Positions 13,131 to 35,931 of a stretch of 35,931 bases of DNA are shown here, piece by piece (positions within the stretch are counted from its first letter, which is position 1; every line of letters begins with the position of its first letter). Under the pieces are notes generated by a model. That model did no database searches, was not told the DNA's origin, and was given only the letters and a program-made list of their open reading frames with translations. This stretch comes from Spirochaetota bacterium (GTDB lineage: Bacteria > Spirochaetota > UBA4802 > JAGODF01): NCBI GenBank assembly GCA_026419015.1, contig JAOAAF010000017.1, forward strand, positions 1 through 35,931, in the 5' to 3' direction. Made by a program: the position numbers and the translations under genes.

Positions 13131-15443
13131 TTATTTTATAGGAAGAATTTTCATTTCATGTTTTATTGAATTACTATCAAACTCAACAAAATATCTATTG
13201 TTCATATAAAATTTACTGAATTCGGAGAGAGGATTCATAGAGATACCCGCAACCCGTGAAATAAATGCACCATTATAAAATGCGACAGAAAAAGCGGTAA
13301 CAGATTTAGCGCGATATCTATTATTCATATCCACTGGTGCATTGAATATTGTAGAATCATCGCCCGAAATTTTGTATAGATACGTTTTCATGAATTCTTT
13401 TCGCACAAGCGACTCCTTACGTAATAATGGGATTTGTAATTTTGCTTTATGCAACCGTCCCCATTTCCATTGATTCATATAAGGTCCGAAACTTTCATTG
13501 AGAAACTTTAATGCGTAAATGAATGCACGATCAAAAATCATGCTCCTTGTTTCCACGCGATCTTCAGTCTTCAAATCATCAAAAACGGGTGAATTTTCAT
13601 CTTTTGCGATTTGGGCAAAATTCTCCATCGCCCAATAATAATGCTCCAGCGCGTGATATGCATCATCTCCTAGCTCATCGTATATAGTTTCGAAGAAAAA
13701 TCTATTCAACACCACATTCATAATTGCAGAGGGAACCGAATCCTTTTGTGCGAAATAATCCCAATTTTTAAAATAAATTTTGCTAAGTTTTGCTGAAGGG
13801 ATAGGAATTTTATCGAGAAGACTACTATATATTGGGGTAAATTTCTTAGCAATTTGTGATTCCGTATCGTGAAGGATATCCTTTATTAAATGTGGTTGTG
13901 CAGAACGTTCCCTGATGAGTTCATTTATGCGTTCATAGCGCCACGTATCGTTGAAAACTTTTCTGTGCTGCAAAACAGGTGGGAGCACTGCAAGCATCTC
14001 GCTTCCAACGACGAGTTGTTTTCCACGTTCTTCGCTGAAATATGCCCCAATCGGTACTGTTGGTTCATAACCGTAATACAAATCGCCCCTTAATATTACA
14101 TTACCAATATTACGCCGTGATATAGCTCCTAAAAATGCAAGAATTCCTTTTTCATTCGTTGCAAGAAGATACACCTTGGGTATCGAAATCACATTCGTAA
14201 ACATTCGATGCGCATGAGATAATCCTTCCGCAAAAGGAAGGTCAAAAAGGAATTTAAAATATTCTTGTGATGGTTCTATGCCTTTAACGGAAATAATATC
14301 CGAAGGCAATTTCCCTTTAAATACATCGCTTATTATTGGGCAATCCTCTTTCCAGCGGACCTGATATGCTGTTGTGTCAGATATGGCTTCATCTTTTCGA
14401 ATTTCTATCTTCTCATCTTTAAATGGTACTTCAATCCACCTGCCACGTATTAAGCATTCAGTTCCTTGTCCTTTTTTTCTTGTTATTTCTCTATAAAAAT
14501 CTTGCACATCAATGCTAAGATTAAAACCTGCAAAAGAAAATTTTTCATTTCTCCCAGAGAAGATATATGGCAATCCAACAGCGGTTAAACCGATTACCGA
14601 TTTCCCTTTCACTTCTATTCGAACAGGATACCACACAGGATAGATGTTTGCAAGGCTTTCTGCATTAAACGCAAATGCTGACTTTTCATCAGCAGTTATG
14701 GATTCAGGGATGTAAAATGCAAAACCTCGATTAAACAAACCCACATACTTTTGGACTGTTTTTTGTAATTCTTTCAAAAGAAATATATTATTTTTCTCAT
14801 TTTCATCATATCCTCCTATCAGCCAGGAAGGAAAAATTTTCTTCACCTCGTTTCGAAGGTTTTGATTTTTAAAGATATACACAAGTTCTCGATTTTGTAA
14901 AAAAGAGAAACACCAATCAAGCATTAAAAGGATTGCTATTGAATCCTCCGCGACCCATTCAACATTACTTATATTACTGACCGCAGCAATATCGTGGTAA
15001 TTTCTTTTTAAAAATAAATTGAGCCCTTTTGTATATGCAATGAAATACGATGAGTATCTCTTCTCGAACTCGCGAAATATTCTTTCTGCCTTTCCCCTAA
15101 AATTTAATGTTCGCGACAATTTATCAATTACAAGCGCCTTCTCGCCTATACGAGCCGACAGCATGCCATTTGCAATAGCGCGATAATAATCCGCAATAAT
15201 TATCCCATCCTGCGCGTGCACATACCCTAACGCAAGGAGCGCATCTTCTATTTTTTCTGCTCGTATTAATGGGATTCCATTTTCATCGCGCAACACCGTG
15301 ATAGGTGCTAATACCTCTGCATGCAGAATCTCATCATAAGAGACAGTTTCTTTTACTTGAAAATACCATATTAAAAGTAACGCGATGCTTACAACAATTA
15401 CAACAGATAGAGAAAAGGTAACATATATTGCTTTCTTTTTCAT
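13131..15443 (-). CDS. Penicillin-acylase-family (Ntn hydrolase) homolog, probably catalytically dead
   Basis: Protein of 770 residues with an N-terminal signal anchor (about 7-29), so extracytoplasmic. Penicillin amidase features are recognisable: ITVLRDENGIPLIRAEKIEDALLALGYVHAQDG near the start, SFAGFNLSIDVQDFYREI near 303-320, ILHDTESQIAKKF, and WKWGRLHKAKLQIPL near the C terminus. In active members a Ser/Cys/Thr (S-N-N-W motif) becomes the N terminus of the beta chain. Here the aligned stretch is RGFAFYIPESITADEK, which puts Gly240 at that position. The oxyanion-hole Asn segment aligns with LVVGSEML (about 478-484), also without Asn. The alignment is by eye. It starts 36 bases after dapL on the same strand. 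No other lesion is seen, so the fold is probably kept for a non-catalytic role. Confidence 0.8.
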   Translation of the reverse strand: MKKKAIYVTFSLSVVIVVSIALLLIWYFQVKETVSYDEILHAEVLAPITVLRDENGIPLIRAEKIEDALLALGYVHAQDGIIIADYYRAIANGMLSARIGEKALVIDKLSRTLNFRGKAERIFREFEKRYSSYFIAYTKGLNLFLKRNYHDIAAVSNISNVEWVAEDSIAILLMLDWCFSFLQNRELVYIFKNQNLRNEVKKIFPSWLIGGYDENEKNNIFLLKELQKTVQKYVGLFNRGFAFYIPESITADEKSAFAFNAESLANIYPVWYPVRIEVKGKSVIGLTAVGLPYIFSGRNEKFSFAGFNLSIDVQDFYREITRKKGQGTECLIRGRWIEVPFKDEKIEIRKDEAISDTTAYQVRWKEDCPIISDVFKGKLPSDIISVKGIEPSQEYFKFLFDLPFAEGLSHAHRMFTNVISIPKVYLLATNEKGILAFLGAISRRNIGNVILRGDLYYGYEPTVPIGAYFSEERGKQLVVGSEMLAVLPPVLQHRKVFNDTWRYERINELIRERSAQPHLIKDILHDTESQIAKKFTPIYSSLLDKIPIPSAKLSKIYFKNWDYFAQKDSVPSAIMNVVLNRFFFETIYDELGDDAYHALEHYYWAMENFAQIAKDENSPVFDDLKTEDRVETRSMIFDRAFIYALKFLNESFGPYMNQWKWGRLHKAKLQIPLLRKESLVRKEFMKTYLYKISGDDSTIFNAPVDMNNRYRAKSVTAFSVAFYNGAFISRVAGISMNPLSEFSKFYMNNRYFVEFDSNSIKHEMKILPIK

Positions 15444-15479: not shown

Positions 15480-16715
15480 TTAAAATTCAAATTGGACATC
15501 GCTAAGCCTTTTTTCAACTTCGTGTAAAATCCGTTCTTCATCTTCAATTCCCTTTGATTCAAATGTTGCTGAAAATCTCACAAAGCTGCCTGCATCATCC
15601 CATGGCACTGTAGAAATGAGTTTTTCCCGTATAAGATATTGTGAAAACTCTTCAGCTGTTTCGAATCTTTTTCCTCCACGAATTCCCTTTGGGCATGAAA
15701 CATACAAATAAAATGTACCATTGGGCATCTCTGCATCAAAACCGAGCTTTCGCAAAATTGCAACAAGCTTTTTTAATCGACGTTCATATTTATCTCTCAT
15801 CTTATCCGTAAGGTGATAATTATTCAATGCAACAATAGCAGCTTTTTGAATAGCTTTGAACTGGCCAGAATCGTAATTATCCTTCACCATCGCAAAAGCG
15901 CTAACGGCAAGTTCATTACCAGCAACAAACGCGATCCTCCAGCCCGTCATATTAAACGATTTGGAAAGGGAATGAATTTCCACCCCAACTTCTTTTGCCC
16001 CAGGAATGCTCAAAAACGAGAGTGGCTTTCTCCCATAGGTAAGCGCTGCATATGCCGCATCGACAATTAACAATATTTTATGCTTCATTGCAAAAGCAAT
16101 GGCTTTTTTATAAAATTCCTCATCAGCACACGCACCTGTTGGATTATTTGGGTAATTCAACACCATCGCTTTTGCTTTCCTACATACATCTTCTGGGATG
16201 GAATCTAAATCAGGTAAAAAACTATTTTCTTTTGTAAGCTTCACATTATGCACCACGCCTCCATACCATTGCGCATGAGTCCCAAACACGGGGTATCCTG
16301 GCACCGTCATAATCACCATGTCCCCTGGATTTACAAATGCCGATGGCATCATTGCCAAAGCCGACTTTGATCCTATTGCATGCACAACTTCAGTTTGTGG
16401 ATTTATCCCTCTTACCCCAAACACATTTTCCAGGTAGCGTGCAGCAGCAATTTTGAACTCTTCAATTCCATTATCTGCATAACCCCTATTTTCTGGTTTT
16501 TCCGCTTCCTCTTTCAATGCTTCAATAACTACATCAAACGCTTTTTCATCAGGTTCTCCCACTCCTAAATCAATTAGCTCAATACCAGGATTGTCTCTAA
16601 TTGCCTCCCTTTTTGCTCTTTTAATTTTTTCAAATTTATATATTTTATCTTCTTTCCCGAACTTACTGCCCCCTATTCTTTCAGCGAAAAGCTCTTGAAT
16701 ATAAGATGTCCCCAT
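15480..16715 (-). CDS. dapL: LL-diaminopimelate aminotransferase-type PLP enzyme
   Basis: Fold-type I aminotransferase that would convert tetrahydrodipicolinate to LL-diaminopimelate in one step, for lysine and peptidoglycan. Length is 411 residues. Family marks are IDLGVGEPDEKAF, GYADNGIEEFKIAAARYL, GSKSALAMMPSAFVNPGD, NYPNNPTGA and VDAAYAALTYG (Asp219, Tyr222). The PLP lysine is K252 in HSLSKSFNMTGWR. The start at 16715 is chosen because GGGGAG lies seven bases upstream; six earlier codons are open but lack such a site. One base separates this ATG from the stop of the upstream gene. Related class I aminotransferases are an alternative, but the paired YADNG and SKSALAMMPSAF motifs favour DapL. 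Confidence 0.88.
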   Translation of the reverse strand: MGTSYIQELFAERIGGSKFGKEDKIYKFEKIKRAKREAIRDNPGIELIDLGVGEPDEKAFDVVIEALKEEAEKPENRGYADNGIEEFKIAAARYLENVFGVRGINPQTEVVHAIGSKSALAMMPSAFVNPGDMVIMTVPGYPVFGTHAQWYGGVVHNVKLTKENSFLPDLDSIPEDVCRKAKAMVLNYPNNPTGACADEEFYKKAIAFAMKHKILLIVDAAYAALTYGRKPLSFLSIPGAKEVGVEIHSLSKSFNMTGWRIAFVAGNELAVSAFAMVKDNYDSGQFKAIQKAAIVALNNYHLTDKMRDKYERRLKKLVAILRKLGFDAEMPNGTFYLYVSCPKGIRGGKRFETAEEFSQYLIREKLISTVPWDDAGSFVRFSATFESKGIEDEERILHEVEKRLSDVQFEF

Positions 16716-16716
16716 A

Positions 16717-17196
16717 CTATTTCTCCCCGACAATGGTAATTGCAGTGTTTATTAACTCAATTTTGACAAACGCATCATCGAGCAGTGTAAAAAATCTATT
16801 AAATTCACCTACGGCGTTTATTATCGTTTTCCCTTTTTGCAATCGCGCAAGCGTCGCAATATCTTCTTTTTCATAAACATTTTTTGAATATAAATAACAT
16901 TCCACATAGCCCTTCTCATAAGGAATCTCAACAACAACACAAAAATTATAATCGATATTGTTTGAAGGGAGCACTTCTTTTACTACTGCACTTTTAATTC
17001 CTACCAGTTCATCTCGCAAATTGCTTTCAATGAGATATTTTTTCGCTGGGTTTGTTGTGCTATCTATTTCTTCTTTTGCTTTTATTAATTCTGCAATTTC
17101 TATCTTTGGTCGAAACCATCGGACATATCCGCGATACCCGCACGTCGAAGAAAGTAAAGCAACAAGCATGAAACATGCAAAAATTTTTCTCATCAT
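16717..17196 (-). CDS. Small exported protein, putative lipoprotein
   Basis: No family recognised. From the ATG at 17196 (AGAGG five bases upstream) it has 159 residues. It begins with a short secretion signal, MMRKIFACFMLVALLSSTCG. Cys at about 19 follows L-S-S-T, a relaxed lipobox of the sort tolerated in spirochaetes but poor by the enterobacterial rule. The remainder is soluble, with mixed alpha/beta character and no obvious active site. An upstream extension to 17247 is open but would bury the signal. Its stop is one base before dapL, so the two are cotranscribed. An envelope role beside diaminopimelate synthesis is a guess from position only. Confidence 0.7.
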   Translation of the reverse strand: MMRKIFACFMLVALLSSTCGYRGYVRWFRPKIEIAELIKAKEEIDSTTNPAKKYLIESNLRDELVGIKSAVVKEVLPSNNIDYNFCVVVEIPYEKGYVECYLYSKNVYEKEDIATLARLQKGKTIINAVGEFNRFFTLLDDAFVKIELINTAITIVGEK

Positions 17197-17335: not shown

Positions 17336-18658
17336 TCATTCAATATTTCCGCCTCTTTGTTGTGCAGCTTTCATCTTTCTTTTCAACTCTTCATCGCTTG
17401 TGCTCATCATAATCGTATTGCTTTCCCATTTGGAGTAATTTTTGAAATATTCTGTGCTTAATCCTATTGCTTCATAGTATGGCAAAAAAACTGTGTGTCC
17501 ATATTCGTCTTTAATGGGTTTTTCACCGCGCGGAACAACATACGCAATAGCGTTTTTGAAAAGCCTATCGATAAGTCCCGTTACTTCTGGAATTTTTTTC
17601 TCTTCTGCCTTTTCCAAAAAGGCAAAAAACGCTGCAGCAGCCATTCCGACGATATAATTTTTGTTTTTCCCTATGAGAACGATTTGCTTCTTTTCGCGAT
17701 CAATTTCATAATTTTCAAAGTCCGAAAGCGCAATGACCTGACGTTTTTCGATGTACGATCTCCCGATGTAAAGCGCAAGATTCAATTTCACCGGATGCAT
17801 ATAATAATTGGAAAGGAACTCGAGATGCTTTTTCACTATATCGTTTTTTAACTCCTTTGCAATTTGCTTATCGGTTACTGTCTTCTTTTTTTTCTCTTCG
17901 TCAATCTTCAATCCTTCTGGTGGCGGTATGCGAAGATGCGCACTATAATGCGCCAACGCTTCACATGAAATCCCTTCGATGATAGGTGCAACTCCATAAC
18001 GATACTCTATCCCTCGAATTGCACCAATATCAAAAAATTCATTTGTGTTTTTCACTTCAGCAATTTTAATAGGCGGGCCAGTTTCTAGTGGTAAACGATA
18101 AATTGCATACTCTTCAATTCCCATCTTTTTATTCCATTGAATAGATATCGAACCTCTTTCGTCGTCAGTGACAATTCGAACTTCTTCTATCTTATCGCAC
18201 ATTTTATTGTGCAAAAAAAGAGCACATCTTCCCGCAATCGTTCTGGCACCATCGTCGAGCTGATCGGTAGATTGAATAAAGTATTCAGTCGCATATACAC
18301 TCTGTTTTTTGGGCAAGTGAAGCAGCACTGCTTTCACAAGATAACCGTCCCCATACGAACGCTCAACTGTTCCGCAAATCACATGGGTTGATTTTTTATC
18401 ATGCGCTACCTCAAAAGCGCGATTTATTTCCTCGCTATTCATTATATTTACAGCTTTATTGCTCTCGCACAAAACAAAATGGATATCGTAAAATTTTTGC
18501 AATGCAACTTTTTCAGCTATTATTTTTCCAATGGAAACATCACCACTCGCATCATAAAACGGAAATACGATCACAGATTTTTCCGCATACCCAGAATGCG
18601 TTACCAGTATCATCAATATCGCCATTGCCAGAAATTCCGTTATCTTTTTTGATACCAT
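17336..18658 (-). CDS. Exported protein with CsgG/TolB-N-like and fibronectin-III-like segments
   Basis: Not assignable to a named family. The 440-residue protein starts with a clean Sec signal, MVSKKITEFLAMAILMILVT, with probable cleavage after HSGYA. Residues about 27-150 (VIVFPFYDASGDVSIGKIIA) resemble the N-terminal alpha/beta domain seen in CsgG/TolB-N-like periplasmic proteins. Residues about 156-230 (GSISIQWNKKMGIEEYAIYR ... FFDIGAIRGIEYRYGVAPI) look like a fibronectin type III beta sandwich. The C-terminal half is charged and helical, with a small hydrophobic patch (YIVGMAAAAFFAFL). AGGAG lies eight bases before the ATG. It sits 139 bases upstream of the putative lipoprotein gene on the same strand. 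A structural envelope role is likely; the domain calls are by eye. Confidence 0.7.
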   Translation of the reverse strand: MVSKKITEFLAMAILMILVTHSGYAEKSVIVFPFYDASGDVSIGKIIAEKVALQKFYDIHFVLCESNKAVNIMNSEEINRAFEVAHDKKSTHVICGTVERSYGDGYLVKAVLLHLPKKQSVYATEYFIQSTDQLDDGARTIAGRCALFLHNKMCDKIEEVRIVTDDERGSISIQWNKKMGIEEYAIYRLPLETGPPIKIAEVKNTNEFFDIGAIRGIEYRYGVAPIIEGISCEALAHYSAHLRIPPPEGLKIDEEKKKKTVTDKQIAKELKNDIVKKHLEFLSNYYMHPVKLNLALYIGRSYIEKRQVIALSDFENYEIDREKKQIVLIGKNKNYIVGMAAAAFFAFLEKAEEKKIPEVTGLIDRLFKNAIAYVVPRGEKPIKDEYGHTVFLPYYEAIGLSTEYFKNYSKWESNTIMMSTSDEELKRKMKAAQQRGGNIE

Positions 18659-30198: not shown

Positions 30199-30211
30199 AG
30201 AGGTGTTACTC

Positions 30212-31069
30212 ATGAATTACTTTAAAGGAACTGATGATTATGTTTTATCGCCAGCACTTCGCGATATCGTTAATGTATCCATTGCGCTGGGAAGACCCCT
30301 CCTTTTGAAAGGTGAACCGGGCACAGGGAAAACGCTACTTGCACATTCAATCGCGAAAGGCTTGGGGAAAGAACTCATCGTGTGGAATATAAAATCCACA
30401 ACAAAGGCAAAAGAAGGCTTGTATGTGTACGATACTGTTCAACGTCTCAACGACTCCCGATTTGGCGATAAGGATGTTTCAAACATCAAACAATACATTC
30501 ATCTCGGGAAATTGGGACTTGCGTTTGCATCAAAAGAACAAGTAGTGCTTCTCATCGACGAAATCGATAAAGCCGATATTGAATTTCCAAACGACCTTTT
30601 AAATGAACTCGATGAAATGAGCTTTTATATCCCTGAAACTGATGAAACGATTAAAGCCATTCATCGGCCAATTGTAATCATAACCTCAAACAGCGAAAAG
30701 GAACTACCCGATCCATTCTTACGTCGATGTGTGTTTCATTATATTGAATTTCCCGATGAAAACCTCATGGAAGAAATCGTGAAAGTACACTTCCCTGACT
30801 TGGACAAAAAGTTATTGCGCGAATGCTTGAAAAAATTCTATTGGCTTCGCGAATTTGATATGCTTCGAAAGAAACCTTCTACGAGCGAATTGCTCGACTG
30901 GATTCAGGCACTGATAGCAGGTGGCATTTCTCCAAAAATTGTGGAAAACGAGCTGCCATTTTTAGGCGCACTGCTCAAGAAAAAAGAAGATATGGATTTG
31001 ATTTTAAATTCATCCAAAAATCATTATAGCTTCAATTCGAGCCAAAGAACTACAAAAAATGTTTATTAA
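30212..31069 (+). CDS. MoxR-family AAA+ ATPase
   Basis: ATPase of 285 residues from the ATG at 30212, six bases after GAGGTG; an earlier in-frame GTG at 30203 is part of that ribosome site. Walker A is GEPGTGKT (34-41), Walker B LLIDEIDKAD (D116, E117), sensor 1 ITSN (Asn160), and the arginine finger is R171/R172 in FLRRCVFHYIEFPD. The helical lid follows to about 240. MoxR ATPases act as chaperones that remodel or metallate a partner, usually with a VWA protein encoded next door. The VWA gene overlaps its end by 11 bases, so the pair is translationally coupled. Confidence 0.93.
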   Translation: MNYFKGTDDYVLSPALRDIVNVSIALGRPLLLKGEPGTGKTLLAHSIAKGLGKELIVWNIKSTTKAKEGLYVYDTVQRLNDSRFGDKDVSNIKQYIHLGKLGLAFASKEQVVLLIDEIDKADIEFPNDLLNELDEMSFYIPETDETIKAIHRPIVIITSNSEKELPDPFLRRCVFHYIEFPDENLMEEIVKVHFPDLDKKLLRECLKKFYWLREFDMLRKKPSTSELLDWIQALIAGGISPKIVENELPFLGALLKKKEDMDLILNSSKNHYSFNSSQRTTKNVY

Positions 31070-32246
31070 TTTTTTTTACAACCTAAAATCGCAGGGCGTA
31101 CCAGTTTCTCTGCATGAATGGTTAATGCTCCACAAAGCATTATCACAGAACCTTAATGATTGCAGCCTTACAAAGTTTTATTACATTGCGCGCGCAATTT
31201 TAGTAAAAAACGAAATTCATTTTGATCGCTACGATATAGCATTTTTGGACACCTTTAAAAATATCGAAACAACAGACGAACTTCTCGAGAAAATTTTGGA
31301 AGGGTTAAAAAAAGTAAAAGAATTAAAACTTACTGAAGAAGAAAAAAAGCAACTTGAAGCTTTAGATCTCGATCAAGTGTTAAAAAATTTTGAAGAACAA
31401 CTTCGACAAGGGCACTACAAAAACCATGTGGGGGGAAACAAGGCTATTGGAACCGGAGGGCGCTCGACGCAGGGCGCATGGGGATACAACCCTGCAGGAA
31501 TTCGCATTGGTCAAGGCGAATCGAGACATAAAAGCGCAATACAAATTGCTGAAAAAAGAACGTTTCGAAATTACTCAAATAACATTACGCTCGATATCCG
31601 TCAAATGAGAGTTGCGCTTTCGCACTTGCGTTCTCTTTTGCCCATTGGTCCTGAGGAAAAATTAAATCTTGAAGAAACCATCGATGCGACGTGCAAAAAT
31701 GCAGGTGAACTTGAATTCGTATGGCAAAATAAAGAAAAAAAAGCCTCGAAAGTTATGCTGCTTATGGACGTCGGAGGTTCAATGACACCATATTCCAATT
31801 TGGTCGAAATGCTTTTTTCCGCAGCTTCTTCCCAAATTAGTCGCTTTAAGCACTATTACTTCCACAATTGTATCTATCAAGACTTATGGACGGACGTGGA
31901 GCGAAACGAATCAGTTTCTACTATGGATGTAATAAAAAACGAAGATAGCGACTATAAAGTAATTATCGTCGGCGACGCAGAAATGGCACCATCAGAGCTT
32001 ACCTGGCGAAATGGCGCAATCGATTATTGGTATCACAATGATACACCGGGAATTGTGTGGCTGCAACGAATTCGCGACAAATTTAAGGATTCCGTATGGC
32101 TTAATCCTCTGCCTTCACGATCGTGGAATTTCATCCACACGTGTCGCCTTATTCGAGAAATCTTCCCGATGTTTGAACTAACCCTCGAAGGACTTGACAC
32201 AGCAGTGCGCCATCTTATGAAAGGTACTGGCCGTATATACTTTTAA
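31059..32246 (+). CDS. CoxE-like VWA-domain protein
   Basis: Protein of 395 residues and likely partner of the MoxR ATPase. The N-terminal segment (FINFFYNLKSQGVPVSLHEW) is family-typical, and supports the start inside the moxR-like gene. A charged helical region covers about 65-120 and a Gly-rich linker about 122-160 (GGNKAIGTGGRSTQGAWGYN). The VWA domain covers about 230-385. Its MIDAS reads MDVGGSM: D237, G239 and S241, so the usual DxSxS is DxGxS. The later acidic residue is in VGDAEMAP. I recall the same Gly in other members of this subfamily, so it may be a feature rather than damage. There is no signal peptide; cytosolic location is likely. Confidence 0.88.
   Translation: MFINFFYNLKSQGVPVSLHEWLMLHKALSQNLNDCSLTKFYYIARAILVKNEIHFDRYDIAFLDTFKNIETTDELLEKILEGLKKVKELKLTEEEKKQLEALDLDQVLKNFEEQLRQGHYKNHVGGNKAIGTGGRSTQGAWGYNPAGIRIGQGESRHKSAIQIAEKRTFRNYSNNITLDIRQMRVALSHLRSLLPIGPEEKLNLEETIDATCKNAGELEFVWQNKEKKASKVMLLMDVGGSMTPYSNLVEMLFSAASSQISRFKHYYFHNCIYQDLWTDVERNESVSTMDVIKNEDSDYKVIIVGDAEMAPSELTWRNGAIDYWYHNDTPGIVWLQRIRDKFKDSVWLNPLPSRSWNFIHTCRLIREIFPMFELTLEGLDTAVRHLMKGTGRIYF

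Positions 32247-34504: not shown

Positions 34505-35931
<1,427 letters not shown>

Follow-up and report, generated by a model that had tools for sequence, protein, structure and literature searches.

A penicillin amidase family protein with glycine at the nucleophile position, and its lipoprotein neighbour, in one order of Spirochaetota

Genes and features at the locus

The window, meaning the whole 35,931-nucleotide stretch of DNA that was analysed, comes from an assembly of 2.98 Mb in 217 contigs. Three genes on its minus strand lie in the order lipoprotein, dapL, pseudo-acylase, separated by gaps of 1 and 36 nt. The features discussed below are as follows.

13131-15443, minus strand: pseudo-acylase, penicillin amidase fold without the catalytic nucleophile; 770 amino acids, with a predicted N-terminal membrane anchor at residues 2-31
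14724-14726, minus strand: codon for Gly240, which occupies the N-terminal nucleophile position (beta1); Gly in 37/37 orthologues vs Ser or Thr in 131/131 other members
14658-14660, minus strand: codon for Glu262, at the beta23 position; His in 80/83 and Gln in 3/83 outgroup homologues
14001-14006, minus strand: codons for Gly480 and Ser481, aligned with the oxyanion Asn (Asn beta241 of PGA, Asn beta269 of PvdQ)
15480-16715, minus strand: dapL, encoding LL-diaminopimelate aminotransferase; probable start codon ATG at 16715, with a gap of 1 nt to the stop codon of the lipoprotein gene
16717-17193, minus strand: small lipoprotein, the constant partner gene; 158 amino acids, lipobox SSTC, invariant Cys18, predicted OB fold

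We found that the pseudo-acylase has the fold of its family over its full length, as a preliminary description had proposed. The open reading frame starts with ATG and, as that description also held, runs unbroken through 770 codons with zero internal stops. PF01804 was the single Pfam family matched by the product (254.9 bits against a cut-off of 21.3, E 3e-75; residues 47-718 aligned to positions 1-622 of the 675 in the profile). An AlphaFold2 model built with 42 sequences had a pLDDT of 89.9 and a pTM of 0.92. It contains an N-terminal helix at residues 2-31 and a strand at 239-245 that begins at the nucleophile position. The best Foldseek match was D-succinylase (TM 0.76-0.78), followed by unprocessed forms of cephalosporin acylase (precursors) and MacQ (an uncleaved mutant); chains of PGA and PvdQ also matched. 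By fold and homology, the pseudo-acylase is a member of the penicillin amidase family (PF01804, MEROPS S45). The source genome encodes two ordinary paralogues of this family, C29 (851 amino acids) and C151 (884 amino acids), both over the Pfam cut-off.

The dapL product matched the NCBIfam equivalog NF004937 with 695.9 bits (cut-off 585). In promoter and terminator scans the numbers of sites were about equal to those in shuffled sequences, so the operon is proposed from spacing and conserved order. Upstream of the lipoprotein gene, an open reading frame on the minus strand (17336-18658) encodes 440 amino acids with a signal-peptide-like start. It matched no Pfam family over the cut-off, and nothing related to it turned up at the other loci in the comparison. 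Elsewhere in the window, 30203-32246 on the plus strand encodes, by eye, a MoxR-type AAA ATPase and, after it, a VWA-domain-like protein, a pair often found together. Near the window end (34642-35921, minus strand), two open reading frames (35397-35921 and 34642-35082) resemble portions of a single hybrid histidine kinase (PAS/kinase and receiver) that seems to be frameshifted or otherwise incomplete.

Loss of the catalytic residues

The defining feature of penicillin acylases and AHL acylases is an N-terminal nucleophile that they generate themselves. We found that the pseudo-acylase has Gly at this position. The cleavage-site motif RGFAFYIPESITADEK, with R239-G240, was confirmed in the translation. 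RGFAFY shares its register with GSNSW and ASNNW of the two paralogues, with no gaps from beta1 through beta23. Position 240 is Gly in all 37 orthologues, including the divergent members of family f3, and is invariant in the 34 orthologues that were aligned. All four Gly codons are used (GGT 14, GGC 10, GGA 8, GGG 5), indicating that it is the residue, not the codon, that is retained. In contrast, the beta1 residue is Ser in 83 of 83 outgroup homologues from Ignavibacteria, Pseudomonas, Chloroflexota, Bacteroidota and others. Among 49 further members from Spirochaetota, a sample that took in some lower-scoring members, 48 have Ser and one has Thr; in all 49, beta23 is His and the oxyanion residue is Asn. 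The two sets share one gene (G018, contig 21) and together make 131 distinct proteins (130 Ser, 1 Thr). The preliminary description had assigned Gly240 to the nucleophile position and had called for a family alignment to see whether Gly is fixed; these alignments bear out the assignment, and Gly is fixed.

The canonical Spirochaetota member L183 carries Thr in place of the Ser nucleophile (VGTNAW).

We considered the possibility that Gly240 reflects an alignment shift and that a nearby Ser, Thr or Cys is the true counterpart. This was rejected: across positions 222-261, no such residue is conserved beyond T250 and position 260 (62% Ser, Thr or Cys each).

Two further catalytic positions are also replaced. 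The third catalytic position, His or Gln at beta23, is Glu262 in the pseudo-acylase and Asp or Glu in 27/37 orthologues. The oxyanion Asn, which the preliminary description had reported missing from VVGSEML (residues 478-484), is indeed absent: the position maps to Gly480 or Ser481 in two alignments that differ by one residue. This column is Asn in every outgroup and in 0/37 orthologues (1/37 in the other register), the residue in the pseudo-acylase clade being Gly, Ser or Ala. In PvdQ, the oxyanion hole is formed by Val beta70, Asn beta269 and His beta23 (PMC5474475). With beta1, beta23 and the oxyanion Asn all replaced, the whole catalytic centre is gone, beyond the change of one residue. 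Judged from sequence by the defining catalytic features, the pseudo-acylase is not an Ntn hydrolase. Three positions assigned by PGA numbering as putative ligands of the structural calcium site are mostly acidic in the orthologues (Glu186 in 36/37, Asp312 in 33/37, Asp315 in 24/37), which fits a stable chain.

The pseudo-acylase probably stays one uncleaved chain. The region from Asp167 to position 240, which includes the spacer, is 71-75 residues long in all orthologues vs 76-110 in outgroups, which fits a spacer that has ceased to be excised. This short spacer, the lack of Ser, Thr or Cys at the cleavage position and the presence of uncleaved precursors among the best structural matches all point indirectly to a single chain. 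In 34/34 orthologues the N-terminus carries a hydrophobic segment, in agreement with the membrane anchoring that had been proposed.

Conservation of the pseudo-acylase and its lipoprotein neighbour

We found that the Gly proteins are confined to one order of Spirochaetota. A scan of genome contigs with the single sequence gave no relative; an alignment query gave relatives, the nearest of which are in metagenome assemblies of Spirochaetota (for example JARKUF010000004.1, 46% identity). The Gly proteins group together in a single clade (SH-aLRT 100), with one change of state. They were found in 29 of 198 genomes of the phylum at E <= 1e-60, all within the one order. More than 30 genomes have open full-length frames at 28-46% identity, with Gly240 among 28 invariant columns, and dN/dS among the closest pairs of orthologues was 0.09-0.26. 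Even the strongly divergent f3 members L155 and L156, on a branch of ~2 changes per column, still have the Gly. The pattern of substitution indicates that the pseudo-acylase is a fixed pseudoenzyme under purifying selection, not a decaying gene, and upholds the earlier suggestion of selection for a non-catalytic protein.

The pseudo-acylase is absent from three genomes (G005, G015 and G022). In another (G042; L175:6761-9061) its coding sequence is spread over more than one reading frame, perhaps through an error of assembly.

The lipoprotein, which the preliminary description had not mentioned, is the constant neighbour. It has a signal peptide with a lipobox, its Cys18 is invariant among 32 sequences, and it was modelled as an OB fold (pLDDT 79). 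Searches by sequence in PDB, Pfam and NCBIfam gave nothing reliable; a few members matched PF12869 and PF01336 (tRNA_anti-like OB) weakly and below cut-off (best E 0.0065 and 0.044). In one sample, all 37 genomes of the order had the lipoprotein and none of 161 other Spirochaetota did. In a second sample the lipoprotein was present in 45/46 genomes of the order, the exception (G045) being 72% complete with a contig that starts at the gene. The lipoprotein gene is directly upstream of the pseudo-acylase gene, or separated from it by dapL, in nearly all loci that have flanking sequence. The sole exception where sequence exists is G004, in which the two genes are on separate contigs. The three genomes from which the pseudo-acylase is gone have kept the lipoprotein, so the dependence seems to be one-way. 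The loci of active-type paralogues that were examined do not have such a lipoprotein. The order-wide linkage could partly reflect slow change of gene order, though dapL comes and goes.

In families f3 and f4, a pair of genes lies upstream of the lipoprotein gene (L127:13246-17037 and L156:10778-14019). By eye, they encode a Tat-signal molybdopterin oxidoreductase and a ferredoxin-type iron-sulphur subunit; the pair is of formate-dehydrogenase type and is perhaps an ancestral neighbour.

Interpretation and known systems

We think it probable that the pseudo-acylase is an uncleaved, membrane-anchored pseudoenzyme derived from an Ntn hydrolase, and that it acts together with the OB-fold lipoprotein, as a scaffold in the envelope or as a module that binds a ligand. 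It would have arisen once, from a periplasmic hydrolase of the penicillin acylase type, at the base of the order. The nucleophile would have changed from Ser to Gly, the beta23 His or Gln and the oxyanion Asn would have been lost, and the spacer would have been shortened. The N-terminal helix would hold the single chain in the inner membrane, and the acylase fold would lie in the periplasm. There, the intact fold and the old substrate cleft may now serve for binding, perhaps in a complex in which the lipoprotein is primary and the pseudo-acylase depends on it. That the ligand is acylated is a guess. More tentatively, and as a possibility that falls somewhat short of probable, we suggest an envelope system of two proteins ancestral to the order, in which a dedicated OB-fold lipoprotein has an uncleaved natural 'S1G' acylase as its receptor or scaffold.

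Other explanations were considered. The first follows from the preliminary description, which had guessed at a role near the cell wall from the position of dapL. In that case, the pseudo-acylase would be a cell-wall accessory protein linked through dapL to diaminopimelate metabolism. In a comparison of about 40 neighbourhoods, dapL was directly upstream in about 20 loci, including the source locus, where it lies on the same strand. Only in roughly half of the orthologous loci were the two genes thus adjacent; about 16 lack dapL there and keep the lipoprotein. In addition, the pseudo-acylase is predicted to be periplasmic, whereas DapL is a cytoplasmic enzyme. The variability of dapL, with the lipoprotein nearly always present, weakens both the cell-wall argument and the case for dapL as a functional partner, and we consider this explanation unlikely.

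The pseudo-acylase might instead regulate an active paralogue present in the same cell, as a decoy or inhibitor that sequesters its substrate or forms a mixed complex. Paralogues of the active type, with Ser, His and Asn, are indeed present in the source genome and many others. However, the pseudo-acylase is the sole PF01804 member found in four genomes (G007, G012, G017 and G038), and the paralogue loci without the lipoprotein also speak against a decoy. We regard this as quite improbable.

A changed enzyme, with new chemistry performed by another residue, also seems very unlikely. Ser550, Tyr557 and Asp638 are 100% conserved within the clade and not in canonical members, which speaks for this reading. 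However, they sit on model helices (549-558 and 633-652) off the strand of the Ntn centre, where they may equally be a surface for a partner, and there is no strictly conserved Ser, Thr or Cys near position 240. Together with a YPxWYP motif (residues 268-273), these three residues are, from their conservation, the leading candidates for a newly acquired interface or ligand site. Phe637 and Phe641 are likewise specific to the clade.

Finally, that this is a decaying gene on its way out, having lost its catalytic residues, is scarcely credible: the three genomes without it and the split frame in G042 fit decay, but the many full-length frames, the low dN/dS and the invariant Gly240 refute it for the family as a whole.

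A Gly-fixed clade under purifying selection shows that this fold has a function without Ntn catalysis. The annotation 'penicillin acylase' is thus misleading for this gene in these genomes, and the constant lipoprotein is a concrete candidate for its partner. If the reading of a two-protein system is true, it describes a binding protein built from an Ntn hydrolase.

Our searches of open-access papers turned up no account of a natural pseudoenzyme within the penicillin amidase family. The best Foldseek match of the partner lipoprotein is Klebsiella 3f1z (E 7e-4), which likewise has a signal with a lipobox and an OB fold; the two are only 15% identical, and the partner lipoprotein matches no Pfam family over its cut-off. 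We know of no other pairing of OB-fold lipoproteins of the 3f1z kind with an acylase fold.

For the pseudo-acylase itself, D-succinylase from Cupriavidus sp. (PDB 7eby, 7ea4), a member of the S45 family, has the same whole-chain fold at 16% identity. It is catalytically active, whereas the pseudo-acylase is without Ser beta1, His beta23 and the oxyanion Asn. The paralogues C29 and C151 belong to the same family but keep the Ser of GSNSW/ASNNW, as well as NDPH/NDTH and TANNR. Closer in state are the precursors 1keh, 4e55 and 5c9i, each an uncleaved single chain and a structural match to the pseudo-acylase. The S1G mutant of Kluyvera citrophila penicillin G acylase (PDB 4pem, identified by its PDB title), also a structural match, has the same change of Ser to Gly. 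This mutant and the precursors are engineered or trapped states; in contrast, the Gly of the pseudo-acylase is natural, clade-wide and fixed.
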